Below, in pieces: positions 9,956-64,000 of a DNA stretch of 64,000 bases. The stretch lies in NCBI GenBank assembly GCA_000611775.1, contig KK106981.1, forward strand, positions 1,304,620 through 1,368,619. Direction: 5' to 3'. This DNA comes from Umbilicaria muhlenbergii. Its lineage: Eukaryota; Ascomycota; Lecanoromycetes; Umbilicariales; Umbilicariaceae. Each line of letters opens with the position of its first letter. Position 1 is the first letter of the stretch. The notes under the pieces were generated by a model. It ran no database searches and was not told the origin of the DNA. It saw nothing but the letters and a program-made list of their open reading frames with translations. Made by a program: the position numbers and the translations under genes.

Positions 9956-11227
9956 TCACGCCGTCCATCTCGCCGGATGATATATCTCAGGGGCAATATA
10001 AGTCGTAAGCGACAGGGTTTCCCTCTCCAGCCCGCACCCAATATATGTCTGAAGCCTACGTCCACCCTCCAAAGATCGATGTGTACACAAGCCTTCGAGC
10101 GCTCGCATATAGTTAACAACGAAGCGTCCTCTGCCCTGGCCTTCCAAATACGTCGCCAGTCCCTTCGCAACGGCAAGGTCGGTCTTGCCGTAATGCTTCG
10201 CGGGGATATAGAGCTTTGCTTCTGGGCGGGCGTTATTCGGTTTGATGTCGAAGTTGTATAGTACACCCCCTGTTTGATGGTGCGTCCGAGGGAGTTCCTC
10301 GCTGGAGGAAAAGTCTCGGTCGAGGCTCAAAACGAGATGCCAAAGCTCGCGCAGGTTCCTCCGAGTGCTTCCCGAGTCGAGATTGGAGAGTTTGCCGCCC
10401 ATAGACAAGACGGCACACACATTGTCCCAGGATGTGGAAGGTGATCTAACGTAGATTCTGAGGCGCGATTTGCTTGGGTCTACGCAATCGACCGCGAGAC
10501 CAACAATCTGAAGCTGAGATCCTTGTGTATCGGTGGACATGAAATCCAGTAGTTCATTGTAGGCGGGAAACCTCAATTCCGGTCGTTCCAAGCTTCGAAT
10601 CGCGTCTGAGACAACGGACAGGCGCATTTGCCCCGTTTGCTCGGCTTTGACTGGAATGAGATAAACCTTCGCTGCGATATTGCCCTTTGTCAGGTCAAAA
10701 GCCATTAAAATAGATGACTGGTCGCTCGGGGACTTGACTATCTGCTCGGTGACGCTGGCTTCGTTACTAGAATTGACGAACGCTTTGGAGAAATGACTGA
10801 ACCACCGATCATCAACTCCAAGCTCCTGAACAAGATCCACGCTCATCACCTGATTGAACGGATCGCTTGTGCTTCCTGCGTCTGGGCCAATGGCCTCGAG
10901 AGTATACCGTACTTTTGGCGATGCTTGTTCATTGTCCCAGCTCCAGCTGTATTCGATGGGAGAGTAATCGTCTGTTACAAAGCTGTTCCAGCCGTTGGGC
11001 AATCCTTCACTTGTGGGACGGGTCCCAAGCCGAGAGATTATATGGTCGAAATGGAACAAGAGGCAATCGTGCTGGCTTTCAAGATCATAGCCGGCTTGCA
11101 GAAGCAGAAGGGCTAAGGAAGGACCTGTCACCTGCCACCAGAAAGCAGCATCTTCATTCCGCGGAACCAGCTGTGCGTCCAGGCTTTTCCATATGTCGAT
11201 TGCGGTTGGCGGTCCGGTTGAGCCCAT
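9956..11227 (-). CDS. DMATS-type aromatic prenyltransferase
   Basis: A single uninterrupted frame of 423 residues. Family marks run in order: FWWQVTGPSLALLLLQAGY near the N-terminus, LLFHFDHIISRLG, SFVTDDYSPIEYSWSWDN (residues ~83-100, the indole-binding region), KVYLIPVK, RLRIYVRSP, LYNFDIKPNNARPEAKLYIPAKHYGKTD (a Lys/Tyr-rich stretch of the diphosphate shield) and a C-terminal TTYIAPEIYHPARW. The family attaches dimethylallyl groups to tryptophan, indoles or other aromatics in secondary metabolism. Length is typical. The acceptor cannot be read from the sequence. No NRPS, PKS or terpene cyclase lies within this window; the nearest possible partner is the broken nitrilase at 13.3 kb. The single-exon structure is unusual compared with the intron-rich neighbours. 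Confidence 0.92.
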   Translation of the reverse strand: MGSTGPPTAIDIWKSLDAQLVPRNEDAAFWWQVTGPSLALLLLQAGYDLESQHDCLLFHFDHIISRLGTRPTSEGLPNGWNSFVTDDYSPIEYSWSWDNEQASPKVRYTLEAIGPDAGSTSDPFNQVMSVDLVQELGVDDRWFSHFSKAFVNSSNEASVTEQIVKSPSDQSSILMAFDLTKGNIAAKVYLIPVKAEQTGQMRLSVVSDAIRSLERPELRFPAYNELLDFMSTDTQGSQLQIVGLAVDCVDPSKSRLRIYVRSPSTSWDNVCAVLSMGGKLSNLDSGSTRRNLRELWHLVLSLDRDFSSSEELPRTHHQTGGVLYNFDIKPNNARPEAKLYIPAKHYGKTDLAVAKGLATYLEGQGRGRFVVNYMRALEGLCTHRSLEGGRRLQTYIGCGLERETLSLTTYIAPEIYHPARWTA

Positions 11228-13279
11228 GTTGCCGATAGAAGGTCAGTGAGGAAACAACGAGGCGGAATACGGTAGACAGGATTTCTCTGCTTAGAGTGTA
11301 TAACGGACTTGAGAAAATGGGGATCTGGAGGACTCGGAGCTCTCTATAGAGAAAGCAGCCGAGAAGGATGGACATGAGAAAAGTTAAGCAGAAGCTATAC
11401 TTCAACAACCCCCTGATTTATGTGTTGCTAAAGGGTCATTATTCGCGAGCAGTCCCATATGACTCCACCACACGTCGGGGGGCGGGCAGGAAAACCCCGT
11501 GCACTCCGTTCAGCAGACAACACTGCCACTGGCAGAAGGTTTATTTGCACATTGATGCTGGACATGTCAGATTGCTGACTAGATGTCCTGGTGAGGCGCA
11601 AGACCCGCCTTGGATAGACTGACAGCGAAATGGTGAGCCCTTTGATACAGTGTTTCGTCGCCTCTGATCTTGAACACATCCCCGTTTTGCAGACACAGAT
11701 ACTTCCACCCGATTGACCACTAATCAAAGAACCAAACGGAAGGACGGTAGAGGAAGCTGTGGCGCGATATGGGTTGCAGCTCACCCGACACTACTCTAAG
11801 AAACGTCACTCATACTCTGCATTTCAATAGGAAACACTCGAGATCCTATCTGCTAGTGCGTCCTCTTGGCTCAAGCTGTGGTCTCTACTGGACAGCTCCC
11901 GCCAAGGTTCAACCAGGTTGAATGCATATGATCGCCACGTCAGACTCGGGCTTTGCAGGAGGATAGGAGCTACTCAGATTGTTAGTGCATGCGAGGGAGC
12001 AGACATGTTCTGAGTGTTTCGCTGACCATGATCCTCCAGCCAATCTACATTTTTCGCTCGAAGGGGCTTTGTGTATACGATTGAGCTTGGAGCCTGAAAT
12101 ATTGGTAGACATCATCGAGCATCAATGTAAATTCTGCTTCCGCCATAAGTTCTAGCGGGAATACTGTGCGTCAAAGGCTGAAATATAAGCCAAAACCGAA
12201 GACTGTGCATTATTCGTTCTTCGTCGAGTCATGTTGAAGCCCTGAGAGGATCCGACAAGCTGTTCGCATTATGCATGCCCAGAACTGGTGCATGTTTGTC
12301 CCGAACCAGCTGCTATTGAAAAGGCGACGTGGAATCGTCGATAGGTGGCTCGAGACAAGTCGTTTACGTGCACTTCGACTAGTCCGACCAAGGCGAGTTC
12401 TTGCTCCTCGTCCAATAATCATACAAGAGTAGTTCCGTGGGCGGATCTGCATCACAATGTCCGACATGCCGTCTATCACCATCGTGCACTTGTACCTTCG
12501 TATCGTGATCACTCATCAGTTGATTGGGTCAAAGATGAAGATGTTACAGACCCCACCTTTCTCTGCATGAAGTCCCTGCATGATTAGAAGCCATGGCTAG
12601 AGGTGCGCTTAGTCGAAGTAAACACGAAGATACACCGACTCTGTACTTCATAGATCTTGCAGCGTATAAAACTCTGTGCATGGCTAGTATCTATTTCTTG
12701 AGTCCTCGTGGCCACAGTTCGAAATCAAAACTGCTCTAGTACGAGGTTCGATTAATCCGAATTCCACCGAGGCAGTCCATTTGAGACATTTGCGTTAGAA
12801 CGAGCATTCAATCCACAAATCTGCCGTCTCTAACACGGATCAACAGCAGAGTGCAGGTAAAGAATTGACGAGCAAGAAGAGAAGCGGCACAGTTTACCAT
12901 TCTATACGGCATCGATGCGCACTGCTATTACACCCTCTTTCACAATACCGGTCACCTCATCTCAAAACATCGACAACGATCTGTTTTCACGCGTTGAAAT
13001 GTCGTAATCGATCATGCCTCGTTTCCGCTCTTGTCTGTGGGGGAGTAATCAGCTGGACCAGTTCCTCTACACTACTTCTCATGGCTTTGTTAGTGTTCGT
13101 TTTGGTTGAGCTCTTCAGTGTGTATAAAGTTGCGAGGTCTGTGGCTGTGTCTCAATTGCCACTCAATTGCCATCAAAGAATTAGTGCAAATCCCGCATTG
13201 CAAGAAAGTCATACCTTATATTTCTAGAGAACAGCAATATCTTGCTCAGTCGGAGCCGCTTTCTTGGAAGGCCACCACG
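11228..13279. other. Two-kilobase gap between prenyltransferase and nitrilase remnant
   Basis: Only short frames, most without an ATG, and no domain that I recognise. The region would contain the prenyltransferase promoter and the upstream part of the nitrilase. It may hold decayed cluster genes, but I could not reconstruct any conserved peptide by splicing. Confidence 0.4.
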
Positions 13280-37463: not shown

Positions 37464-37556
37464 AGTGGTGGTGGTGGTGGTATTGGTGTTGGAGATGGAG
37501 ATGGAGCTGGAGATGGAGATGGAGATGGAGCTGGAGCTGGTGGTGGAGATGCAGGA
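37464..37556. repeat. Low-complexity GGTGGT / GGAGATGGAGCTG tract
   Basis: Runs of GGT, then repeats of GGAGAT and GGAGCT. It lies just upstream of the small membrane-protein gene, whose possible 5' leader intron (GTAAGC at about 37455) begins next to it. Confidence 0.8.
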
Positions 37557-37778
37557 GGTGGAAATGGTCGACTTACTTTGTGTGTTCACTAGCGTTCCAG
37601 CCGCCCATTTGTCATTAGGCCTGCAGCGCTGCGCGCCGCAGAGACCGCTGCGGCGATTCTCACCTTACTACGCAAACCAAAGCTCACATCCACCTCCGCA
37701 CATACATCAATCCCACTACATACCCTCTACCATCATTTAATACGACACCGCTCTTCCGCGCTTCCCCCTGGGGTCTTT

Positions 37779-38016
37779 GGCACCCTTTGAGGTCATCGAG
37801 CATCTGGTCGAGTACCACGCTCCTCTTGAGGTCGTTGGCACCTCTTGAGGCCATCGAGCATCTGGTTGAGTACCGCGCTCCTCTTGAGGTCGTTGGCACC
37901 TATTGAAGTCATCGAGCACCTGGTTGAGTACCACGCTCCTCTCGAGGTCGTTGGCACCTTTTGAGGTCATCGGCATCTCGTGGAGTACCAGGCTCCTCTT
38001 GAGGTCGTTGGCACCT
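37779..38016. repeat. 58-bp minisatellite, four copies
   Basis: The motif GGCACC recurs at 37779, 37837, 37895, 37953 and 38010, giving periods of 58, 58, 58 and 57 bp. Each unit reads roughly TTGAGGTCATCGAGCATCTG ... GAGTACCACGCTCCTCTTGA ... GGTCGTT. Copies differ by a few substitutions, and the fourth has lost one base. As 58 is not a multiple of three, the array is not a simple protein repeat. Confidence 0.9.
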
Positions 38017-39189
38017 CGTGCGCTGGTCATGGCTGCGGCAAACCGCTCCGGTTCTTCTTCCGTGAGATCTCGGTCTTTCCGAGCATCTTTTCGACCTCCT
38101 TTGTCGCCCCGCCTTTTCGGCTTCCCTTTTTCGGGTCTCCTTTTGACAGGAGCGGGCGCTCCACCCCCATCTTGAGGGCTTGGAGCGTCCAAGTTCACCC
38201 ACTGGCACTGGTGCTCCTGGGGAACTCGGTTTGTCGAGCGCCTGTTTCGACCTCCGGTTGGCGGATCGCCTTTTCGACTTCGCTTTTTCGGTTCTCCTTT
38301 TCGACAGGAGCTGGTAGCGCTCTCCGGAGCCAACTACCTGGAGGTCACTTCCCCTCCTTTTGGGCAATCTGCCCAGTGCGGCTTCGTCGATCGCCTGCGG
38401 TAGTCGGGTAACTAAAGCGCATTCCCCTACCTCCATGGTTCTTCTTACATCGCTAACAACGACAGGCTCTGACCTCTGGTCCTGGACCTTCGGTCCTTCG
38501 ACTTCGCTTTTTCGACCTTCCTTTTTCGGCTCTCCATCGCCGTTGTCGCGAGCGGTGGCCAGATGACTGCTCGTGACCAGGTCCTCCGCCGCCTTTCTTT
38601 GGTCGGCTCTTCTTTGTCGACTCTCCTTGTTCGCCTCCCCCTTCTTCGCCTTCCTTTCGGCACCCGTGCTCACGGCCAAGAGGTCTCGCGATTGCCCCAA
38701 GCGATCGTGGGCCTCTTGTGCCAATAACAACGCGATGGTCTCTGTTCTCCTTCTGGGCTTTTAGCCCAACGTGGCCTCGTTGCCAACTGGCGGAATACAG
38801 AGGAGGTCATGCGCATTTCCCTCCCTCTCCCTAAAACTTTCCATCGCTAACAGCAACAGGATCTCCACCCCTCAGCTCCTTGGTCCTCCGGGCGTTCTTT
38901 CTCAGTCGTCCTTTTGACTGTTCCTTTTGACAGCAGGGGCAGTAGCCCCATAAGGTGAGTCATTCCCATTCCGACCTCTCCACCGCACCATGGCTAATAG
39001 AACAGCTGACCTCAGGAAACAGGCAGAGAACTTCCCCTGGTACATGCCTGAGGCAGCACCAGGGACGCCTGGGTCACGGAAAGCGGAGAAAGCGCAGCGG
39101 ATGCGAGATGCGAGGAAGAGAATCTCCGAGGATAAAAGAGGAGCTTGAAGGAGACGAGCACCGGCTTGAAGATGGCCAGGTGGGCAACG

Positions 39190-39597
39190 GTAGGTCACCC
39201 ATATTGCTACCTCCCCTGTGCTCCGTCACTAACTACAACAGGCTCCCTGCCGGGATGCTTGGCATTGCGAGACGTGCTCTTTCTGGGCCCTCGGTGCTCC
39301 TGTCTTTTCTCTTCTCGGTCGACCTTTTGGTTGTGCTTCTGGAGAGCAAGGGCAGGAGGTTCGTAAGGTAAGTCGTCCTGCTTCCTACTTCTCTTGTGCT
39401 CCATCACTAACTACAACAGGCTCCCTGCCGGGATGCTTGGCGTTGCGATACGTGCTCTTTCTGGGCCCTCGGTTCTCCTGTCCTTTCTTTTCTCGGTCCA
39501 TCGCTTGTTTGTCCTTTTGGAGAGCAGGGGCAGTAGCCCCATAATGTGAGTCGGTCTCGTTCCTTCCTATCCTGTGCTCCGTTACCAATTACAACAG
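39190..39597 (+). repeat. Tandem exon-intron-like modules, about 178 bp period
   Basis: Three intron-like blocks of exactly 52 nt (39190-39241, 39368-39419 and 39546-39597) have GTAGGT, GTAAGT or GTGAGT at the left, a pyrimidine tract, a CACTAACTACAACAG-type branch point and acceptor at the right. They enclose two near-identical 126-nt blocks (39242-39367 and 39420-39545), each beginning GCTCCCTGCCGGGATGCTTG. Similar but more diverged blocks lie upstream at 38408-38465, 38806-38859 and 38955-39005. The 126-nt length would keep a reading frame, but translation of the chain on the plus strand meets a stop in most frames, so no protein is proposed. Confidence 0.7.
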
Positions 39598-40989
39598 GCT
39601 CCATGCAGGGACAAATGGCGCTGTCACCTGCTCTTTCTCGGGTCAGGCTCCCATAGCTCTCGGCCGACCAAAATCCAGGACAGTGACGACGAAGCTCCAG
39701 GCATCAGTAGCTTCCGTTGGATACGATGCGACATTACCGGCAGCCGTGAAGACAGTCTCCCGGGCACATCACGACGAGAGTGCCACGCGGGATCAACTTT
39801 TACTCTGGAAGTCGAGTTCAACAAGAAGACAGGGGCGCCTCTCCTCGTCGACATTCAAAGCGCGGGCACGGCTGGTGCTCCTCTTCTGGGGTTCTCCTGC
39901 TTCGGTTTCCTCTTACAGCTTCCTTTTCCCGGCTCTCCTTTCGGATGTGCTTCTCGAGGCTCATCTTCAACCGACTACAAGTCGGAGACTTGCGCTCTCC
40001 CAGTCTCCCTGTTCGACACCTTCTCCTGACCTTCTTTGTCGACTTCGTCCCTTTCGCCTTCCTGTTGCGGAGCCCTGTTCTCACCACGGGCCCATTTCCA
40101 GGAGTATCATACTGAAATCGGTTGGTTTTCTTCGGGTCCCTTTTCTTGGCTATCTTTTTCGACTTCCCTTTCCCAGGTTCCCTTGGTCGATTTCCCTTCT
40201 TCGCCTCCGGGCGCGATCGGTCGCTTGGAGAACGAACTAGTAGGACGACAGCAGTAGTCCATGCCATGGAGCAATGGGGGACCTGCGGTCTATTGTAAAT
40301 GCATTGGGGGATCAACTACCTAGGCTATGTAAGTTATTTCATCTCTTCTTTTTCATTCCGTTCGTTCATCCATAACTGCGTCAGAAAAACGAGACGCTAA
40401 TAGCTAAAGAAGATCGCCTGGTATCACAAACGTGGAATGCCATGCCTTTGCCTTCCTTTGGCAAGAAAATCTACACCTCCGAATTCAGTTCACCCGTATT
40501 TCATCATTCCGAAAAGCCGAAGTTGTTAAAGAACGCGGCCTCCTCGCAAGCAAAGTCATCGACGATCGCAGAGGATACGACATACCCACCATCCCATTAC
40601 CGAGTATGCGACCCATATCACGCACCGAGCGCCATTTCCACACATATCAAAGTGACTAAGATTTGCACCCCGTTCGCACACGCTCACAGAGATAGAGAGA
40701 GATCGAGGCGCAAGTGGGAGCAGCACCGAAGGCAGTCGCTTGAACCGGTAGCTGCGCGAGGAGTGTGCAAAAGAAGTGACGCCCACGAAAGAAAATGAGA
40801 CCATTGGAGGAAAAGAGACCAAGGGTGGTACAAAGACGGGAGGAGCTCGACAACAACTACACCAAGATGGCCTAAGGAGGAATCGAAGGTATGTAGGACA
40901 CCTGTGCTAGAAAGTTGTAAGCCACGGAGACACACTTCCCGAGATAGAAAGCTCCGTATGGCGAGTTTCTATCGTGCTCGTGCGATCTC

Positions 40990-48681: not shown

Positions 48682-50610
48682 TCAGTCATCGGTCTGGGAG
48701 CTTGCATCATTGGGGTCCGAGTAGATGTCGGGTGCGCTGACGTCAGGCATGCCGAAGGTGGGGAACTCGAGCCCACCGTCTTCAGTAAGACAGGGATTGA
48801 GACTGCTGCGTGCGAACGACAACAGCTCGTCAACTTCACCAAGTGTTTCGCGACTCAGATCTGGATTTCCGAGGTCGAAGCCACGACGGTCATCTAGCGT
48901 GCTGGGATCTTCTGATAACGGCCGGCTGGAAAGCTGTGAACCCCATTCGTACAGCACCGAAGGCATGTGCGGGACTTCATTTGCTGCCGCTTCTTCGAAG
49001 GTAACCTGCGGGTGTTATCTTCGTCGCTGTAGCAAGAGCTCCCACGAAGTCGAAGACTTACCGGCACTCGGTCTGGCAAAGTGGATCGTTTTGGGGTGGC
49101 ATCGTCATCTGAGTCATTTTCCATAGCAGTCCGCTTGCGCTTCTCTCCTGGGTTCGCGAAGTAGTTCGTTTGAGCGATGTCGTTCCGAGGCGAATGCTCT
49201 TCCCTTGGGCTAAATGCGTTATCGAAGTGATCGTTCAATGTTTCATGGGCGTAAGCATCGAAGTGATCACTTGAAGAACCTGCAAGCCTGCCGTTATCGT
49301 AGGCGTTTTCTTCTGTGAACAAGTTGCCCTGTGTCTCTCTACATTAGCATATGTTGTGTCCCCATGTATGATATGCGGTACTCGCATTGCATTGTCGGTT
49401 GCCTGTTAGCTCCGCGCTTTGCTTTCCTTCTGCTTTCTTCCGCTCTTCATCTGTCACGCTTTCAGGGGAGCCTCGGAAGTCGACATAACCGCTGTACAAT
49501 GCGCTCCTGGCTGCGACATGAATGGTTGAATGAAGGCTTGGGTCGCTATGATAATCCTCTTCTGCGATGTCCGACGGGTCTTCACGGTCATCCGACTCTT
49601 GATAGCCAGGAGCACCTACCTCTAGCTCTTCATGTACAAACAGCTCTTTTTCCTCATCAGAACCCAGCTCGTCATCCAATTCGTCCTCGGCATCGTCAGA
49701 CTCCTGCTCGTCTGTATCAACCTGGCTGGTATCATCATCAGACGTTTCATCGCTGCTATCCCACTGCTCCTCGTCGTCCTCGATAGGTGCTTGAGTTGCG
49801 ATGGTTCTGCGGGCACGACCCTCTCCCTGACCAGTCCACAGAACAGGGTGAGGGACTCGGCCGCCAGTCTCGCCAAGGTTGGGATCAATGAGACCAGGGG
49901 TTGTGCCGCGGGTGGTGTTGTTTGCACGCTGTGCTGGCGACAACAAGGCGAGGATGCTTGCCTCTTTAGGGCTCGTTTTCTTTCCGTGCCAAGAGAGGAG
50001 GGAGTACGCTGGCCGCCAGGACCTACACGCTCTCATATTCAGAGCGTTTTCATTGGGCCGGTTCACGCCATCCATCCTCATCGTGATGTCCGCCCAACGC
50101 ATTCGCCCATCGCCACGTCTCCAAGCCTCCAGGATTAGTGCTGACTCGGCGGTGCCGATCACATCAGGCTGCGCGCATATTAGCAACTGTCAATTCGATG
50201 TTGGCTGGGAACTTGCCAGGATTTTGTAATCCAGCAGTGGCCTAGGTGCGGTTCCGGGCTCTGGGTGCTGTTCGAACATTGAGATTCCGTTACCATCAAG
50301 CTTCTGAGGAGGGACCCTGCTGTTCTTGAACGTGTTCCACGCTTCAGATGGTCTCAAATCGTACAAGATTGATGGGAGGTTGTCCCTATCATCCCACAGG
50401 TGCTGGCCTGGATGGTAACTTGTCACGTCGTTCGGACCTCCTCGTCCAATACGACGCGCCACAGCTACGTAAGCGTTAGTTCATTCGCTATGGCTGAGCT
50501 GATCAGGATCCCATCTTACCATAAGTCGTCGGACCACCTGGGGCGATTTGAGTGTTCGTCGCTGCGAGGTAGAACGGTGTCTGGTCCCAAGCCACGGGTG
50601 TAGTCGCCAT
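48682..50610 (-). CDS. Unknown acidic, probably nuclear protein: paralog family copy A (apparently intact)
   Basis: Proposed exons, high to low: 50610-50520, 50464-50217, 50168 to about 49382, about 49335-49062 and 49005-48682; roughly 575 residues. I do not recognise the family. Visible parts: APGGPTTYAVARRIGRGGP near the N-terminus; VTSYHPGQHLW; a central conserved block IGTAES...EAWRR...RWADITMRMD then NMRACRSWRPAYSLLSW; ANNTTRGTTPGLIDPN; a very acidic segment of ~110 residues (DDEEQWDSSDETSDDDTSQ and on); and a basic NLS-like PGEKRKRTAM. Intron 2 (50169-50216, 48 nt) uses a GCAAGT donor, a rare GC-AG intron. No stop or frameshift was found in this reading; the junction near 49340-49380 is the weakest. 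Basic plus acidic composition suggests a nuclear, chromatin-linked or transcriptional role; this is inference only. Confidence 0.65.
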
Positions 50611-52071
50611 CACGTAGGTCACGATTGGCCTTTCGACTGTACGATACAGATCGTTTGTCAGTTACCCGGCAAAGAGTGAGAAACGAGCACAAAGAACGTG
50701 AATTGGAAGGTGGAGTGCAAGAGAGCGTTGTACGGTATGAGGGAACGCTCTTCAACATTCAGTGCGATATGATGTATAAGGATGGTGTGGATACGGTGTG
50801 GATTGTCTCACACAGTATCCCAGTATGCATCGATATAATGGGGTAATGTTGGGGCTCGAGTGAAACAGTCTTGCCACTCGCAGCAGTCATATGGCGCCAT
50901 CTTGTGCCATTGGCATAGCTGATAGTGCTAAGGGACGCTCACGATGAACTTACCTGATTGTATTGGGAAATGAGTTTGTCGTGGAGGTGGCGCAGCGTCG
51001 TTGTTGCCTGAGAATAACCAACACTCAGAAGGCAAGGGGGCCGTCGAAGATTAAGACGACCAAGGTTGATGCAAAATTCTTTTGCATCCACAATTTCGTG
51101 CAGGATGGATTTGCACAAGCTCGATCTGTTGCAACGATGCAGTTCGTAAAGTGCAAGAAGATATGGAAGAGTTTTGGAGTCTTGTCGATGCTGAGTCGTT
51201 GGTTACGATCAAATCAGATGAATAACAAGCGTGACCTTGCAAAAAGTCATCAAATCGGAGCCTTAGATTGGACAACCGTTACCCGGCCTGGAACGAAGAC
51301 ATCAGATTACAAGATGCTAGCCAACCACGAAGCAGTAATTACTCGTCAACCTCAACAACATCATTCGGCCCATACAGTAGTCCGGGCTTCTAAAGCCCTA
51401 ACTAGCGAAAAAGAATACGCGAGTTGGATCTCCGCCACATCAATGACACCACTGTACTTTCAGTCTCATCACTGCTGTCCGATGCAGATTGCTACAGCAA
51501 TATTCTTTATTTCAATGTACTCTGTCAAGAGCTATATAAGCACGATTTGGCGCGGCTTTGACATACAAGCAATAGAGCATTACCCAGTCCACAAGCATAC
51601 GCATGACTGCGAGGCGCTTACAAGGAGGGCTTCGGAGGGATCAATGATCGAAAGGTTGATATATATACAAACGGGTAAAGGATGCCCGGTCAGGAATATT
51701 CGCTACAGTTGCTCCTGTTATTCGATTTGGAAGTGAATGCTTGGATTGATCTGCCTGTGTGAGAGATCGATTGGTATACAACGAGCATGAAACAATGCTG
51801 AGCGTCTAGGAAGTGCTGGAATGGCAGCACGTAGTGCTTTAAGCCATAAGTCGTCTCTAGCGCATAACCTTACGACGCAACCGGTTGGAACTGAATTGGA
51901 TCGAGATCTAAGTGCTTTTGATACTAGGTACAAAGACTGTCTCAAAACTGTTGCCAGAAAGGGAATCGCATGTTTGTAACGCCGTGGTTTAAATCAGTAG
52001 CCAAGGGAAGACCATGTTGCTAAAGGTATGAAGAGTAATAAGAACCAAAGACAGAGCAAGCTTGAGCCGGC
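50611..52071. other. Region between family copies A and B
   Basis: A plus-strand frame of 257 codons (50963-51736) lacks an ATG for its first 58 codons and shows no domain; it is not called. This region must carry the promoter of copy A and the 3' flank of copy B. AT-richer than the left half of the window by eye. Confidence 0.4.
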
Positions 52072-54346
52072 TTAATAGTTCTCCATATTCATCAGTTCTC
52101 TCAAGATGTCAAAGCCCGGGGGATTTGTATCTTCAGGGAAGGCCTCGTCATCAGCAGCCACAGCGTGGTCCGAGGTTGTATGAGTATCGAAGTCGTTTGC
52201 AGTGCTCAAGGGTGGTAGATCTGAGGTACAGGTCGGTGTGCCAAGGGTAGGGAGGTATCCGTGACCAGCTTCTGCAGTGCGCACAGGTGCTCCGGTTTCT
52301 GGTGTGTATCCCAACAGCCTTGAACTGCCGAAACGCTTGAGCGGGTCATCAACGCTTGAAGAATCAAGGGTGGCTTCATTGGAGATGAAGTCAGGCGAGG
52401 CTGCCAGTGTTGCGTAACCGGAGTCATGGCCTGGAGGTCTAATGAGTTGTGACGGCGAAGTTTCTGAGGCTGACAACGTCCTATTCTCTGTCGGAAATCC
52501 AGGCGTGAAGGCATGGTAATTTAAGGAATTTCGCTCCGCGAACGTTGGCAATGCCTGTGTAGACAGTCGGGTCAGCGACAAGCCCCAGAAAAGAGCAACA
52601 GTGACTTACTAAAATATTATCGTCTATCTACCGTACCTTCTTTGACGATAGGTCTTCCCCGTCGTATTCGTTGGAAGCAGCGCGCTTGCGTCCGGCTGTC
52701 AAAGGCAGAGCAATGTTATCATATGGGAATTGATATGGAATGACGGTATCATTTATCAATGAGCCTGCATTAGTGTCAGCTATTGGAGATTGGTAAGTGC
52801 TGAAAGTCCATATGTGGCTGTTGAACATGCTTGAGTCTCCTGTGATTCCAGCGGCAGCAGTTGTTGTGCCTGTATCAAAGATGCTGTTTGTGGCGTCGTC
52901 AATCTGTTGCAACTGTTTCAGCATCTGAGAGCCTGAGCAAGACGTTGAAGTTACTTACCGCATACTGTATATCATCATGGGTTGGAGAAGTTGGAGTACT
53001 AACTGTACTATAGTTGATAAGTCTAGGATATACGTTGCTCATAAGAGACCCAAAGAGCTCCCTGTCAACAACGCGGGGAGAGCTTCCAGTGCGAGGCAGA
53101 AGGGCATGTCCATGGCCCAGCGAGTGATAGTGCTCTAAGATGTCACTCTGAAGATCCTCTTCGCTGTATGGGTTGGTCGCCGTCGTGTTCACCTCACCTT
53201 CATGCGGAGATCCCTCTAATTGTCCAACGTCTCTATCGTCGCTGGCATTGCTACCTTCAGAGCTCTCGTCAATCGCATCGGGTTCGCTACTAGCGCCACT
53301 AATGCTGACACCGTCCATCTCAACCTCACTGTATTCATGTGCTCCATCGTCAGCATCATCCGAGCTGTTCGGCTCCTCATCAACTTCTCCGTTGTTCTCA
53401 AAGACGTCTTCTGAGCCTTCTTCGTCATCATCCTCTGAACCCTCTTCCTGTTCTTCTTCGGAGGTCTCCTCAGAGTCGCTAACCTCGACCACAACCCTTC
53501 GCTGACGTCGAGCTATTCCCTGGCCATGATGAGGGACAGGGACTGGGATTCGCCTACTCCCTGCGCACAGGGTAGCATTGACTAACCCAGGCGTTGACCC
53601 GCGAGTGGTGTTTGCGGCTATCTGCGCACTCGAGAGTCGCGCTAGAACGCTGTTCCTTCTGGAGTTGGTGCGTGAGGATGGACTTTTTGAGTGACATGCA
53701 AGCATGCAAAATGTCGGCCTCCAGTACCGGCATGCTCGCATCTGCAGGGTGTTTGGGGATGGGCGGTTAGGCCTCTCCATCCGCATTATGAAATCAATCC
53801 ATCGAATATCGGGACGTAATCGACGAATCGCCTCATAGAAGAAGAAGTCTTCTGCTGTTCCGATTTTGTCGGCGAGCTTTCAATTTTAGTAATGGTATGT
53901 TGAATGGTTTGGAGTCTTGAGTTGAGGCAACTTACAATCTTCCAATCTAGGATTGCTCGTGGAGGCTGCTCAGGTTCCGGAAAATGCTCCCACATGAGTT
54001 TTTTGTGCAGGTATATGCGGATTGTTCTTCAACACGTACCATGCTCAGCTGTCAGGGTAAAGGTGATACATTATTTCCGGCATTGAATCAACGCTCCACG
54101 TGGCTTGGCCCGGATGGGAGCTCGTGACACCTAAAGAGAAGGCGTTATTTCAAGGGAGACTCTTACGGACAAGAAATCCCTTACCAGTCACTGAGTTTCC
54201 AGTTGGTCGCGGAATGGCTATACCTTAGTTAGCGTCTGGTATGTGTATCTAGGGGTAGCCTGGATAGGAGATTGACTATATCTTGTTGGACCACCAGGAA
54301 CAAGTTGATTGGCCTCTGCTGCTTCAACATCAAACGCTGCTCCCAT
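52072..54346 (-). pseudogene. Paralog family copy B, with stop and frameshift in the N-terminal part
   Basis: The N-terminal exon starts at 54346 (ANQLVPGGPTRY, like copy A), then AIPRPTGNSVTG and VTSSHPGQATW after an intron each. Here copy A reads RPSEAWNTFKN but copy B has a TGA at 54045-54047 (PDS*AWYVLKN), and a run of six T (53999-54004) shifts the frame before WEHFPEPEQPPRAILDWKI. After the next intron everything is open: ADKIGTAED...RWIDFIMRME, NTLQMRACRYWRPTFCMLAC, ANTTRGSTPGLVN, ~130 acidic residues (EETSEEEQEEGSEDDDEEGS and on), an NLS-like AGRKRAAS...SSKKVR, and a C-terminus ending RELMNMENY. Either a pseudogene, or a protein that starts further in. Confidence 0.6.
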
Positions 54347-57275
54347 GGTATGCTTGCGGCGTTGGAAGTCGTCAGCTTGAGTTTGATGAAATCTCTGATA
54401 GATGCGTGAATCTATTGCTTCCCGTCATTAGCTTCGTGTATCGTGTCGGAGTGGTGACAAAACGAGGAATTGCTGGTTATACGTCGTGCGGCAGCATGTG
54501 TCTGACGGGGCTGGGATGACGGAGCGTTTAAGAATGCTCAATGTACAGAGAACCAACTATTTACGGTCAAAAGCCGTGCTCTTGATGCTGGGAAACAGTG
54601 GCAGGGAGGTCGCGGCGAGGCTATCACTGCCGCTGGGCCACAAAGGGTTATGAACAGAGTGGATAAATGATAAGTGGTGTTATGTGATGAGTCGGTGAGC
54701 AGAGACGAATAAGAAGTCCTGCACAGACGCTACTCTCGCAGCCCATATCCAGGAAGGCTGTCAAAGTGCAAAATGAGGGTTACCAGATATTTTTCGACAA
54801 ACCGAGGGGCTTTCCACACCTGATGATGATAGAAGCGTTGAATGGTATGGTTGGGAAACCATTGTGAGCTGCAAGAAGTGTTGCCCTATAATCTGTTAAA
54901 CTGAAAGTTCCAAATGAGTGTTTACCCAGACACGCAATTCCATCAAGCGGTGGGTAACAAGCCGCAAATGCAAGCCCCAAATGGAACAGAGCCGGCCCGA
55001 CTTTACTATATATTGATACATAACGCAAAATAGAAAGAAAGAAAATACTACCCCGTGGCTGGTACACATAGAGTCTGTTTGAGGCTGGAAGACATTACTT
55101 ATCCCTTTGCACAAGAGATAATACGGCCATCATCCTACATGGTGGCTGACACGGTTCAACGACTTGCTTTGGCCTTCCTTAAGTACTTGAGAGGTCGTTG
55201 AACATTTCTCAGAGGAGCATCGTGCGGCCTATTCACATCGATGACCTGGCCTACAAGGTAGGGATATTCACTACGAGCTTTCGACTTAGGCCTACCAGTG
55301 AACGCGAGAAGCTCATGAGCGCTGGATAAAGGTACTATGAGTTTGAGGCTGTGGGTTTTGAGGTGCTAGGCTTTAGGTGCCTGGTGCTGTAGCACACTTT
55401 GACTGGGGAAGGTTGTAAGCTATATCAACATCTCTACGCCTGGTGTTGAATCAATGTTGGCTTCATAGGGCGGCAGATTGATGTTTGAGGTGGATCAGTT
55501 GGAGCATTTTCCAATAACATCTATGTTTGCCTTTCCATCACGGATGCCAAACCAGATGAAGGATCATCGGGCATGAGGCGTGTAGTTGGAACAAAGGACA
55601 GTCAAACAATAGCCTGACAGGAATATTTGTCAACTAGCAAAGCACGAATTGTGCTTTGGGTGGCAGCGTACAGGCACAAGCTGTCACAGCCCCGGAAAAC
55701 TGATAGCACCGCGGTGCAAGCAGACGATTATATTCGCTGCTTCTAGAATACCAAAGCTGTCCCCTGAAGCGACCTCATGATTGAATGCTATCGGGAATGC
55801 TGGGATTGTATGGAAGAGAGAAGGAAGAGAGGGCTGGCAGGCACGAAAGTGAAACAGAAAGTAAGCAAGACATATGTTAAACCTAATAGAGTGGGCTCAA
55901 TGCATGAGTCACATAGGAGGCTGTCCTTCTTGCATGTTTTGCTTTTAGATAGGGAGGCCTTGACAACAGCAAGGAATAATCCAGGGAGCTTCGAAGAAAC
56001 AGACGTTGCGGCACCGTCAGACGAGTAGGTCCTATGCGGGAAGAAATAAGAACATGCAAATGCAATCACTTTCAATGGTGTCGCTGGGCAAATGGACTTT
56101 GCACGGAAGCAAAGGTCTAAGTTCTCAAGAAAAGTTGTGCTTCCTCCTTTACCCGTGCCGCTAAGATGGCAAACAGTGGAGCTGCCTCAACGATACCCGG
56201 CCGCTCATGATTGAGAGCCAGTTGACCATTCCAGCCAAAATTGATATCGTGCCGCTGCTAACAGTTCAGGGATCAAAAGAATCGTTGGCCCTTGGCATCA
56301 AGGCTTGCTGGAGCGTGAAGCTCCTCGTTGTTGTCTTGGCCAGTCGTTCCTGGCTCGATCTTATAGGTCCGGGAGTGTGACCAAGCTCCCGAACCCCGGG
56401 ACTTCGCGTACATCGACAAGCTCGACGTGTATAACAGGGTCAAAGAGTGCTGGGTCACTGTCGTCCATGCCACTGAGGGTTTTCGTCTCGTACTGAACGC
56501 CTGTTCATTGTTGACTTCAGTGTTCCACAGCCGTTCAATATCATGGAGGAGAAATTCGGCTCCGCTGTTCCAGAACCTAGAGATCTATAACCAGTATAGT
56601 CTTACTACTCGCTGCTCTAATGACTAATAGGATAGCCCTAGCCTAGAGTGCATTCGGTTGAACCTGAGGAGCGCCATCAATACAATGATGATAGAATGGT
56701 TCATGGTAAGGCATTATGTATGCGACAACCTACCGAGCAGAAGAGCAGTCACGATACACTCTAGTGTAGTACAATTGCAATTTCAATGTGATTCTATGGT
56801 GACAAGGATATTTTTCAGGGGAAGCTCATCACCGGAGCGATCAGAAAGCAACTCCTCCTAACTTCTGTTGAAGACTAGAGTACACAGTAGCTGTTTTGAA
56901 CACGCTGTTAAAGCACATGAACGAAGCACTGGAGTATATCTGCGAGCAGCAACGGTGATATCCGCCCCGTTTTGAGCTGCAGCATAAGTGAACAATAATA
57001 AATACCTGGAGATGATAAAAGACAAGACGTGCTCGCTGCGTTTTTTGTTGCCAAACGATAACTGTCTTCATGAACGCCAACATACGGTGAAGAAGGTGCT
57101 GGACTGGAAGATTCATTGCAGCCACGCGACAAAAGTATCAAGTCCTTCCCCAAGGATGGAATGTAAATGCTTGGGAACGAAGCTTTGAGTCCTAGGCCAA
57201 TGGGAGGTTGAAAAAGCGTTCGTCCGAACCTTCATCAAGGCCCGATTGTCGCTGGACATCAGCGCCCATGAATAA
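54347..57275. other. 2.9-kb region without a supported gene
   Basis: Between copies B and C. Only short frames on both strands, several without an ATG; AT-rich by eye. I see no transposon open frame, no terminal repeats and no RNA gene. Relics too decayed to read may be present. Confidence 0.4.
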
Positions 57276-58640
57276 TTAGGGATCGAGGCATCCGTGTGCA
57301 AGGTCTCCGTAGTCTGGCGGATTGAAAGCTGGGGCATCTGCGCTGCCTAAAGACTGGTGGACGTCTTGTTGCATATCGTCGCCGCCGAGAGCGTTCGTAG
57401 TTGAGCCGTCATCATGTATGTGATATCCGGAATCGTAAGGAAAGGGAGTGTTGGCTTGCAGACCATACCATATTGAATTTTCTTAATATGAATCGAGTGC
57501 CATCGTTGATTGCGTGGGTCCAAGAGCCTGCTCCAAATCTATCTAGTATCAAGAGCGTTACAGGTAGCGTCGAACTGCCTCACCATTGGGAACTCGAAGT
57601 CATCGGCCGAGAACATCTGGGGACCCTCAAGATTGCCATAGCCGTTGGTATCAAGCATCATCTGGTCGTTCTCCCCATGTTCAATCATGTCACGCCTCAT
57701 CATCCCCTCTTCATACACAGAGGCACGTGCGTTAATCGTAGCTCCAATTTCTTCCGTAATCATTCCAATTTCGCTCTCGCCATTCTCGCGGATTTCGCGG
57801 TTTCTGTCGTCCTGGTAGCCCTCGTCGTCCTGGTGTCTCGTAAACTTGGCTGGCGTCTTCGCCCGCACCAGCCTCTTCGTCGTTGTTGGATTTTTCGTAC
57901 CTAGTAACCTGATCCGCAATGGTAGCCTCTTCACGGCCTTGAGTCTCATCGGTTCCGCCAGCTTCTTCACCATCATTGTCTCTGTTTGCACCTTGCATTG
58001 TGTCTGCCTGCGAGCTACGCGCCCTACCAAACCATGCACAAGGAAGCAGACAAATTGGAAGTTCAATCCAGTGTGAGACATTGTTGACTCTTGCTGGGTC
58101 TTGCAGGCGATGGCTTTCAGCCAGGGCTGCGCTTACATCTGCGAACGGGGTGTGGACTCGACCACCGCCGAGGTAGGTAGTCAGTGGCACAAGCACGTTG
58201 AAGTTTGACCATTGTATGCATTCTGCGTGACATTCCGCGTGGTGTTGAAGAACAGTTGTGGCGGCGACAACCCTTGGACAAGCTCCAATAGAATTCTAGG
58301 ATAATAGCTGCCCTTCTTGGTCCAGAGATGCTTGCCTTGCGCAACCGCATATTGTTCATGTTGTTACACTTAATCCTATGTCATACAGATTCGGGCGGAT
58401 CGACGACATCATTCGCGGGCCACGCACCAAAACGTAAGATGGATTGGATCTGGGCCATGACTTGGAACTGCCTGCATCCTCGATAGAACCCCTGTACTCC
58501 TTGAAATTGCATTCGCTGAAGAGATATCTGAACAAAACGAACAAGCGCCCAACTGGTAACACCCTGCACCTGAATTGTGAACAAACCGATGAAACAATCA
58601 AAAAGGTATGTTGTAATTCGAACGCTGAATACGCTCTAAA
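57276..58640 (-). pseudogene. Paralog family copy C (subtype II), degraded
   Basis: Homology to copy D shows a gene read from about 58640 down to a stop at 57276-57278, but in broken frames. Visible pieces: FQGVQGFYRGCRQFQVMAQI, MNNMRLRKA, FFNTTRNVTQNAY, PLTTYLGGGRVHTPFADV, AALAESHRLQDPARVNNVSH, WIELPICLLPCAWFGRARSS, then an acidic Asp/Glu-rich segment and a tail DDGSTTNALGGDDMQQDVHQ. At least two frame changes are needed, near 58190-58215 and near 57850. The start of the gene is not clear. Called a pseudogene; unseen introns could account for part of the breaks. Confidence 0.5.
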
Positions 58641-58773
58641 AGACAAATACTTGCAGCAACAAAACTGAGAGCGGTTGCGAAGATTCAGCCATCTACAATG
58701 CCTTCCGAAAAGCGTGTGTCAGGTCCTCGGGTCATCCAAGTCATAACTCTCCTGACATTAGCACAACAAGCCC

Positions 58774-60290
58774 CTACGACTGGGCATCGAGATTGTTGGC
58801 GAAATCGGAATAGAAACCTCCATAGGCAGGGTCTTGATATATGATGGGACCGAGTAACCCCATATCTGAAGTATCTAGGAAGTTGTATGAGTTGTCGAAG
58901 AAACTGCCCTCTCCAGGGCCCTCCATCCGTAGTCCACTATATTCTGTAACGTGTCCACTGCTACCCCCTGCAGGGCCATCGGCTGGCTGATGGGACCAAG
59001 AATTGTGCTGGTAAGGGGGTGTTTCCATCGTTGGCAGCGGTTTCTAGAAAGCATCGAAACCATCGTCCTGGCGAAGTATTAGCAGAAAGTACCTTAGAGT
59101 TCTGTAACATCACATACACCTGGATACCCGTTGTAGGCGGCCGGCCTTGCACCTTCCATCCCTAAAATATCGTGACTAGTAGTGTTCTCGAACAACTGGC
59201 CGCCATCCGCATCGTTGGTAGTCGCAGCGCCCATTACATCTTGGAAACCCGAAAGGTGCGTATTTCCTTCAGCGCCGCTGTCATCCTGGTGTAATCCCTC
59301 TTCGTCTTCAGTTATCGCTTCGTCTTCGTAATTCTCCTCTTCTACGCTGTCTTCTTCTTCAGTGCTTTGAACTTCTTCTCCGTTGAAGTGATCGGCTTCA
59401 CTAAGCCCAGATTCAGCTCTCCTATCTTTACCGTTTCTTGACATGCCATTGTCACTCTGTTCGACATCATCATTAGTATTGGTTCGCTCATCCAGGTCTT
59501 CGTTCTCAATGCTGTCATCAGTGGAGTCGATTGCTTTTCGGGCGCTATGAGGCTGTTGGGTACGTGCTCTCCCAAACCACGCATTTGGGAGCAGATGCTT
59601 GGGCAGCTCACTCCAGTGTGCGACGTTGTTGGACCTTGCTAAAGCTTGAAGACGATGGCTCTCTGCTAGAGCTGCACGTACTTCCGCTAAAGGAGTGTAG
59701 GCTGGATATCCGTCAAGGTACATAGTGAGTGGAAGAAGTCGATCTGTACCCGGCTATTGTATAGCACCTAGTGTGACGATCCAGGTAGTATTCAAAAGTA
59801 GCTGGGTCTGCGATAACGTTTCGACGAGCTCCACGAGGATCTTCGGTGGATACTGGGCCTTCTTAGTCCAGCATCTCGCGTTGTAAGGGCGTCTTGCCTT
59901 ACGTAGCCGCATATTGTTCATATTGTTTCGTTCCTTAAGGGGTGGCATGGGTGTGCCAAGCGGCTGTCGCTGCCAGATGTGATAATGCGAAAAATCCTTG
60001 CTCTCCCGGAAGTACGCCTCGACACGGAACCATTCGAGGTTTGACGATAGATATCTTAGAAGAAATGGAAAGTCCGGAACAGGCACTCCATTGGGGTCCA
60101 AGATGGTACGACCGGTCACTGGGTCTTTCATATCTGGCACTCTATCAGACGTGTGCCAGTCATGTGGAGGATCTAAACGACCGAGAGAAGTGGCGGGTGT
60201 TTTGATCGACCATCCGATTTCGTTCAGATGGAAAGTAGTCATATTCTGTGGATTGTTTGGATCGGCCGATACAGCTGGAATAGCTGCCAT
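58774..60290 (-). pseudogene. Paralog family copy D (subtype II), with in-frame stops
   Basis: From an ATG at 60290 an open frame of 178 codons (WSIKTPATSLGRLDPPHDWH, FPFLLRYLSSNLEWFRVEAY, MNNMRLRKARRPYNARCW, LLLNTTWIVTLGAIQ) meets a TAG at 59754-59756. The same frame continues beyond it with PLTMYLDGYPAYTPLAEV, AALAESHRLQALARSNNVAH, WSELPKHLLPNAWFGRAR and about 140 mostly acidic residues. A second possible TAG (59044-59046) stands ahead of the tail (PTMETPPYQHNSWSHQPAD), which ends at 58774. Because homology to copy C runs on either side of the first stop, that stop is most likely a mutation. The second could lie in an intron. Confidence 0.55.
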
Positions 60291-62597
60291 TGCCTGCTAG
60301 AAAATCAGTTGACACTAGTTAGTTATAAAAGTGTTAGCAATCTTTTCAAGAAAAAGAGCGAGTAGCGGCGCTAGGCTTGGTAAGGCAATAGCATCGGAAG
60401 CGCGTATGAAGTCACGCCCTTTGAGAACAAGGTAACGATGAAACTGAAGTGACGCATGCATTTCATGCCTGATAATCCTTCAGAGGGCCGAAGAGAACTA
60501 CATTCCCCAAACGAATACTTCGAGATGATAGCGTCAAAGAATCGAACTGCGATCTAATGACTGCCTCAGTAGAAGATAGATGTCTGTTGCAATGAGCAAA
60601 AACGTGGACAATCTGCTGCACGTGCAGTATGTAAGTAGCATTGTGAGCAAGCAAAATTGTGTGCCATCAAATTCAGATACGCTTTTTAGCGTCGATAACT
60701 GAAATGGCGTGGAGATATGTGAATGAACAGTAACAAAGTCTAAGCGAGCGCTGATATAGGGCATATTTTCGCATATATCTCATAATTCAGTGGGGTTTAC
60801 ATCCACCTCCATTTAGGTTCATTACTCAGGCTTCTTCTTTCAGTTATGAGCTGATGAAAGGATTTCACAGACATAAAGCCATTTCGACCTTTGAGGTATC
60901 CTGCGCGCATGGTGGCAGGCAGGAGGGATCCATAAAACTCGACGACATGAACAGGTAGATAATACATGGCCAGCGAGCTTGTAGCACCGGCTTTGCTGAC
61001 TTTCACCAGAGGATCGTCGCAGCAGCTGGGCCGCGTACTGGTCTAAAATTTTTACTCATATACTAGTGGTAAAGTGGCGTATACCTAGCTTTCGCTCCAT
61101 GGATCTCAAATGCTATGAGCTGTGTATAGATTTGGATGACGATCGTTCGCAGTGCGCCGGAATATATATAGGAAGGAAATAGGAACTTCAGTTAGCTTGA
61201 CGAAAGATCTTAGATGAAAGGGTTGAGGAGATTCACTAGTCTTGTGATGATGCCAGCCTTGATGAAGCAGGTAAGGCACATCTGCACATCGCATTTTCTC
61301 AGTACACCCGATCCATGTTAAGGCAGCATTGATAGTGTATATAGTCTCCAAGTTCTCAACATATAATTAAACGAGCACGACTTAGCTGCTTGTTCACATA
61401 GTATCAAAATGAACAATGTACAATCCAGACTGCAGAAGCCACATAAAGTATGGTTGAAAGAGGCAAAGTGTAGAAATGAATAAGATGCTGTATTAAGGCA
61501 AGTCAGAGTATTTGAGAAGACCTAGTGGCTTTAGGTAAGATAGATACATAGCTCTCTTATATAAAGTAGAAGAGTCAGTCCTGTTGAGTCAAAGAATCAA
61601 AAGGGTCCTCTGCCAGAGCGGAGGTGTGATGTTTGCTTTGTTCACGTGGAAGAGGCTCGTGAAGTTTTAAAAAGAAGCTCAGACATGCACATGATCGATG
61701 CAAAGTGGCACACGTTAATGAATTAGAAATGGTGAAGCTTTGCGCAAAAGGTATATAGTCACACGCTGAGGGAGGGCATGACTTCGACAGAAGCAGCGCC
61801 GACATGAGATAACTAAAGGGAACACAGTACAGATTTCCCTAAAACTGCTGCGGAACTGCCCACGGAGTTGGCGCTGTTGGCTCTGACTGCTGAGACCCAG
61901 ATTGGGCAGTAGCAGGTTGGCCAGGGAGCGTCTTGTCGCGGTTTCGACAGCGCAGCTGGTGTGTATTGGGAGGGCAGGAAGCAAGGTTGGTGCACATTGC
62001 GAGCTCTGCTCAGAAAATTGCATACATATGATACTGCAATAAGAACCGATGCCTTCATATATATATGGAAGCTTTGCGAGTGACAATTTCACAGCATAGG
62101 TTGCATACCCTTGGAAGAAGTGACGAAGCAGGCGCAGCGTTAAGCCCTTTCAAGCGTAGTTCAGCACCAACCTTATCTGAACGTCAAGTCGCTGCGTCCC
62201 GAATACAACCCACCCAATCCGCTCCATGCAAAACCCAAAACCGATTCGGGAATCCTCAGCGTCGCCATGTAAATCGGCCTACGCTTCTTACTATCTCATC
62301 GTCTGGGCTTAGTCCTCGTTATCACGCTGTCCTTTCTTCATCAGCAAACAGCGCAGCCTTCCGAGCGAGGCATTACTTACTTCAGCCTCTTCTCTACCGC
62401 GCCTTACAAGCTCCATCATGCGCACAATACGCTCGTCTCCTGTCCCCCATGCGGGATGTCGTCTTCTTCACTTTTGTTGCCGCCTTGGTTTTCCAGTTGG
62501 CAATCTATAGTGTGATCTGATTCGAAGGGTCCCCCGGGGGTCAAGGGCACGGGCTCATCATTCCGAAACAAAGCCGCTAAAGCCGTAGATGCTAGCT
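60291..62597. other. 2.3-kb AT-rich region without a supported gene
   Basis: No domain-bearing frame. A 151-codon plus-strand frame with an ATG (62065-62520) ends in a hydrophobic stretch (VVFFTFVAALVFQLAIYSVI), but its body is Ser/Arg-rich without recognisable features; it is not called with confidence. Confidence 0.4.
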
Positions 62598-63943
62598 CTA
62601 CATTTCCGACCTCCCTCCCTCCGACTGTTCCTCTACATACTCTTGGTAGTGGGCATCTGCGAGCATGGTTTCCCGTCTTGGGTATGGAAGAGCAGCGATC
62701 TCACTGAGCCCAGTAGCTAGCCGATGCGCTGGCGAGACGTTATCATCTTCAATACACTGCTCTTCCATAGGGCCAAATATCTCAACGCCTAACAATCGTC
62801 AGGAATATGCAGCAATGCTCGTGGTACTTATATCTTGGGTTACTTTTCGACCACGATAATAAGGCGACAGTAGACCTTCGGAGGGCTCCGTGGAACGGAA
62901 GGCGGGTCTGCACCATCTAGTCTTCTGGATCTGTTGTGATTTGCTATTGTATTCCTTGATAAAGCTTCTGGCGCGTTATTTCCCCTTAGTCTTGATTTTG
63001 TTACGGGTCCTCCCAAGGTAGAGCTCCTCAGACTTTGGTGATATCCAGAAATGCTGCCGGGCAAAAGGGTTTTCCGCAACCCGATGAAGACTACCGGCCC
63101 GTCTTATACTTGATCGCAATGGTTGTTCAAAGCTATAATCCAGCGGATCGTACTTCTGTTCTCTCAGTAGAAGTCTTGGCGTTCCTCTACAAAGGTTGTT
63201 ACTCTCAGAACGACCAGATGCTGGTTGTTCTTCCATCATCTCTTCCTTGCTTCTGGGACGTTGCTTCGCTTGAGAACGAAGTCCGTCGGCATTCGCTGCA
63301 CGTTGCGGTCGGGGTCGCAGGCCCCTCTCCTGGATGGGTATCCTTCGACTAGCTGGCCCTCCTTGCGGATCGACCAGGCCGGGCGTCAGCCCGCGAGTCG
63401 TGTTTACGTTGATGTCGATTCCAGCATTTTGCAGTTGCAACTCCAGTGCCTAAATCCGAGCGGCCTACGAATTACCTCGAGTCTGGTCCCAGACGCGGAG
63501 ATGAAGATGTTCCCGGAAGCGGGTACGGTCCATCTAAAGCGTATTCCACCATGGTCTTGTTGCGGGAGGGGTTCTATCTGTAATGTCCTTCCACTGGATG
63601 TTCGAGTTGAGTCAGAACCATGCTTCCAAGAAGTAGGGCTCCACATTGCTCCCAATCCTGTCCAGGACAACCCTTGCAAAATCAAGGTGTCGGCGACCGA
63701 AGATAAGATAGGGCAGCAGTGTTGGCGGTGGGTGGTCTAGCTGTGCCTAAAGGGGCCGAAGTTGGCAGAGAACTGTTGGCAGATCATGAACCGACCACGA
63801 TCGTTGTGCCGGCATGTCGGATGTGAAGTCCTGCAGATTGATCCCCTGAACGCGGTTTGCAGCTGTTGGGTGACACTTAGATTCTTGATCTTTTTGTCTG
63901 CCCATGTTATCATACTTGGAACTAACGGGGTTCCGGTGTTCAT
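62598..63943 (-). pseudogene. Paralog family copy E, degraded
   Basis: Near the right edge a further copy of the A/B type is recognisable on the minus strand: DFTSDMPAQRSWSVHDLPTV (like VTSxHPGQxxW in A and B), DRIGSNVEPYFLEAW then NIQWKDIT (like IGTAES...EAWRR...RWADIT), and NVNTTRGLTPGLVDPQGG with RRIP. The frame is broken by a TAG at 63747-63749, a TGA at 63612-63614 and at least two more stops before the NTTRG motif. A possible last exon ends at 62598 (GVEIFGPMEEQCIEDDNVSP ... YVEEQSEGG). The acidic segment is shorter than in A and B. Judged a pseudogene. Confidence 0.55.
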
Positions 63944-64000
63944 AGCAGCCTGAAGCTGCCGGCGCAGCTGCGCGTTTCGAGGAGCCCTCACACTTGCTTG

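Follow-up and report, generated by a model that had tools for sequence, protein, structure and literature searches.

A tandem family of related genes, all read from the minus strand, occupies C1:1353.3-1373.1 kb, and it is very probably an old family that has evolved by birth and death. The array combines homologous neighbours, an old divergence under constraint, and intact copies mixed with broken ones. The window analysed here is a 64,000-nucleotide stretch, C1:1304620-1368619; the whole genome comprises 34,788,950 bases on 7 contigs and, judged by its genes and introns, is likely that of a filamentous ascomycete. The array extends past the end of the window, and coordinates above 64000 carry the window numbering on beyond that end (Table 1). 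A first-pass annotation of the window had described five related minus-strand copies, A to E. Our comparisons confirm these, and two further copies, F and G, were found. On the left, inside the window, the array is flanked by tryptophan dimethylallyltransferase-like, ARMT1-like, NAD kinase, and PH-PBD-kinase (PAK-type) genes, the first of which is possibly a secondary-metabolite gene. On the right, there are aldo-keto reductase and family-8 glycosyltransferase genes, and two neighbouring frames on that side, read by eye, appear to encode an ABC transporter. The NAD kinase frame is interrupted by a run of unread bases at window position about 17000. Several minisatellites (periods 6-24, 58, and 178 nt) lie at window 37466-39611, and window 38001-40000 has a strong AT skew.

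Table 1 Positions of the array copies and associated features (window numbering unless a contig or locus is given).
Feature	Location	Strand	Description	Basis
Tryptophan dimethylallyltransferase-like gene	9956-11242			Pfam E 4e-102
Copy A	48682..50610	-	574 aa, five exons, no stop; apparently intact	gene model and translation
Copy A exons	50610-50520, 50464-50217, 50168-49382, 49336-49062, 49005-48682	-
Copy A core (exon 3 start)	49854..50168	-	E-A-W...W-A-D-I..R-M...N-x-L-N-M-R-A-C-R...NTTRGTTPGL	alignments
Copy B	52072..54089	-	326 codons open, covering core and acidic segment
Copy C	57280..58600	-	pseudogene; similarity to D spread over three frames, stop between	tblastn of D against the region
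Copy D	58774..60284	-	relative of F, 234 aligned residues from near the N-terminus
Copy E	62979..63683	-	pseudogene; four stops (one TGA, three TAG) in the A/B-matching frame
Copy F	C1:1369602-1371245 (extended window 64983-66626)	-	frame open 548 codons
Remnant G	about C1:1372280-1373070 (extended window about 67660-68450)	-	weak
Contig-4 sliver and island region	L008:4963-5863 and 414-2761 (contig 4, about 145-151 kb)

Copy A is likely a working gene. Three of its four introns start with GT, and intron 2 is of the GC-AG type; the same intron-exon stretch is also present, at 78% identity, in a sliver of the family on contig 4. The least certain intron of the model is intron 3, which is 45 nt long with a weak donor, GTACCG. 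When intron 3 is left out, the frame stops at 49344-49346, past the core and the acidic segment. Copy B has an intron directly before the core, at the same place as in A, which suggests that the duplication probably occurred at the DNA level. Relative to A, the 5′ end of B carries one stop codon and one frameshift, so B is either a pseudogene or a gene that starts at a later ATG. The frame of copy D is interrupted only once, by a TAG at 59754-59756, and D probably has one intron, at 59117-59044. Remains of E may reach to about 62400-64000, beyond the segment in Table 1. C, D, and E are broken, B is damaged at its 5′ end, and A looks intact. The earlier picture of intact copies alongside broken ones is supported.

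Copy F, past the window, is apparently intact and likely a working gene. It has 489 aa when counted from the ATG that is aligned with the start of D, and the chance of an open frame of 548 codons is 8e-10 for one given frame at the local stop rate. Further along, a stretch of G with one stop matches the C-terminus of F (E 2.5e-6; E 0.08 in another search). A second stretch, in another frame, touches the core profile with E 7e-5 when filters are off, and G also carries a strongly acidic, repeat-like stretch. G is probably a seventh copy.

Protein similarity is E 3e-31 between A and B and E 5e-25 between C and D, and E matches A and B with E 4e-5 and 6e-5; all of these are far above shuffled controls. 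The two subtypes proposed earlier, A/B/E and C/D, were borne out. There is no convincing similarity for A-D or B-D when each pair is compared alone, and pairwise protein comparison identifies F as the link that joins the two subtypes. At the DNA level, C and D match with 66% identity over 371 columns. We note that 35 nt within this match (window 58331-58365 and 59893-59927) have 89% identity, above the 66% of the surroundings.

The local nature of the family, also suggested in the first-pass annotation, agrees with our genome searches. With A, the core of B, D (as two halves), and F as queries, no other convincing paralogue was found in the 34.8 Mb genome apart from the contig-4 sliver; the search scores the best candidates only, so the number of relatives is a lower bound. 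Two candidates, C1:8134507 (E 0.04) and C1:8622884 (E 1.1), were rejected as paralogues: with a local profile and stops read as X, the best value was E 10 (L019), and nothing was found at E<=20 (L004). In IMG/VR, the core alignment of four members produced 31 pattern matches, of which not one was confirmed, and a plasmid search with F gave no match. Among the literature consulted, titles and abstract openings contain nothing on this protein family. Similar hypothetical proteins with 'NTTRG.TPGL' presumably occur in other ascomycetes.

The divergence of the copies is old and bears the mark of protein-level constraint. Identity between A and B at the three codon positions is.56/.71/.36. The pN/pS ratio, computed on 69 to 233 codons per pair without stop codons and without most of the acidic tails, from a protein-guided alignment that biases it toward low pN, is 0.43 for A-B (bootstrap 0.33-0.57), 0.36 for C-D (0.24-0.54), 0.65 for D-F (0.56-0.75), 0.72 for A-F (0.52-0.93), 0.54 for A-E, and 0.62 for B-E. 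In four of the six pairs dS is past saturation, and the other two have values of 1.42 (C-D) and 1.81 (A-F); because of this saturation, the ratios understate constraint. Saturated dS with the protein kept indicates that the compared duplications are old and that the losses came later. The same constraint pattern is seen in E despite its four stops, and E therefore probably decayed after a long constrained period. The suggestion that the family keeps duplicating does not fit these values, since the compared array duplications are old and only the contig-4 sliver is younger. Synonymous codon choice in the copies is indistinguishable from that in control frames, and synonymous bias is weak in this genome; codon choice is thus uninformative, and coding status rests on homology and constraint. 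The RIP composite index is -0.54 in the array and -0.56 outside it. RIP was rejected as the cause of decay, as the array index shows no RIP-like bias.

The copies share a core of ~90 residues (aligned length 88 to 94) with the motifs E-A-W, W-x-D-I-x-x-R, and N-x-L-x-M-R-x-x-R, ending at NTT. The core is basic in A, B, and D (K+R against D+E of 14/7, 16/6, and 15/7) and nearly neutral in F (13/11) and E (10/9). An acidic segment follows: the best 80 residues after the core contain 40 acidic residues in A, 35 in B, 33 in D, 20 in F, and 19 in C. Nearer the C-terminus there is a basic cluster, KRKR in A, KRRR in F, and GRKR in B; the scanned part of D showed none. The description of the family as unrecognised agrees with our library searches. 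Pfam gave no family for A, C, or either half of D at E<=10 and none for F at E<=0.1, and for B it gave five matches, all under the cut-off (best E 0.0037). No significant match was found in NCBIfam, which is built for prokaryotes and with which E was scanned in part (for E, the only library), or among PDB sequences (best E 1.1).

By eye, the core resembles a Myb repeat (Myb/SANT, PF00249) in having E-x-L-x(n)-W-x-D-I-x-x-R and, after it, an Arg-rich stretch, and a Myb match at L026 in the same genome reads W-E-D-I-S-K-R, like the array core. However, the core has no Pfam match, and the resemblance failed a profile comparison: the HHalign probability is 2.1% in the expected register, a value exceeded by one of 60 column-shuffled controls. 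The core may be distantly related to Myb/SANT. A weak likeness to DUF7301 (PF23975), with E 0.19 for the B frame and E 0.052 for a single member out of the four in A1, was rejected, as the B frame reached 12.3 bits where the cut-off is 27. A search with DUF7301 gave no match in this genome, but it is uninformative because it gave none in any of 14 control genomes either.

From the conserved Arg-rich block, we infer a putative three-helix fold for the core that would contact DNA or the nucleosome. The layout of core, acidic segment, and basic cluster would suit a nuclear protein. We regard the chance that the family proteins bind DNA or chromatin in the nucleus as evenly balanced. Our leading explanation of the locus as a whole, which we hold tentatively, is an old tandem birth-and-death cluster of nuclear proteins that would probably bind DNA or chromatin. 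At least six and probably seven genes would once have formed a head-to-tail series on the minus strand. Constraint on the proteins would have lasted while the copies drifted apart and most synonymous sites reached saturation; point mutations and small frame changes would later have removed C, D, E, and G, perhaps also B, which would leave A and F as the likely working genes. The proteins would act in the nucleus, where the core would touch DNA or the nucleosome and the acidic low-complexity segment would serve protein contacts. The nearly neutral cores of F and E, the failed Myb/SANT comparison, and the lack of a basic cluster in the scanned part of D speak against this nuclear role. A bolder version, in which an undescribed DNA-binding core defines new fungal nuclear regulators and the tandem cluster turns over, with an action that perhaps depends on dosage or allele (as in recognition of the fungus's own chromatin or of mobile DNA), seems unlikely.

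The same old birth-and-death family may instead bind no nucleic acid, with the core mediating protein interactions and the acidic tail acting like a chaperone or as a scaffold; this is a real possibility that falls short of being probable. It would accommodate the lack of a match to DNA-binding families, the strongly acidic character of A as a whole (110 D+E against 53 K+R), and the nearly neutral core of F. The conserved Arg-rich block, the basic core of A, B, and D, and the basic clusters of A, B, and F argue against it.

A very unlikely explanation is that the family descends from a DNA-binding gene that a transposable element left behind or that was captured from one, as a domesticated host gene or as relics. 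The contig-4 sliver speaks for this idea. It consists of two pieces of copy A (73 bp at 85% and 82 bp at 78% DNA identity) about 750 bp apart. It adjoins a short minisatellite, and some 2 kb away there is an AT-rich island (GC 0.26-0.31) with an inverted repeat of 1.1 kb at 90%, so part of A has moved. The sliver itself is a moved fragment of A and not the source of the family. Several observations do not fit a transposon-linked origin, which the first-pass annotation had offered as an analogy. Apart from the sliver, the family is found at one locus and not as dispersed copies, the frames scanned contain no transposase or reverse transcriptase domain, and introns are retained in A and B. Three array spacers (1.4, 3.1, and 2.6 kb) have no second match in the genome when simple repeats and very frequent words are passed over, and window 46-64 kb yielded no inverted repeats of at least 22 nt (13-base seed).

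Effector and heterokaryon-incompatibility families have paralogues that are clustered, divergent, and partly broken. The array matches that pattern, and the start of F is mildly hydrophobic (12-residue KD 1.78, versus 0.88 and -0.08 in two intracellular neighbours), but such an identity, also put forward earlier as an analogy, is the least probable of the explanations: Pfam gave no match above the cut-off, to HET, NACHT, or any other family, in A, B, C, D, and F; a crude hydropathy test shows no signal-peptide-like start in A and D (12-residue KD 0.62 and 0.57) and only a weak, proline-rich one in F, whose hydrophobic start is interrupted by prolines; and the long acidic segments and basic clusters would fit an intracellular protein.

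Returning to the old tandem family, the locus brings together in one place two probably working genes and several remnants of a fungal protein family for which the domain libraries searched gave no significant match. It is suited to studying the constraint and loss of unnamed genes without RIP. If the core does bind DNA, a new family of regulators would be added. The array looks like an old family, unnamed in the libraries searched, that slowly loses its members. Tandem clusters of paralogues under birth-and-death evolution are a general kind in fungi. The array differs from such clusters in that its protein family has no name in those libraries, and it resembles them in being arranged head to tail, in the divergence of its members, and in the presence of intact and broken copies.
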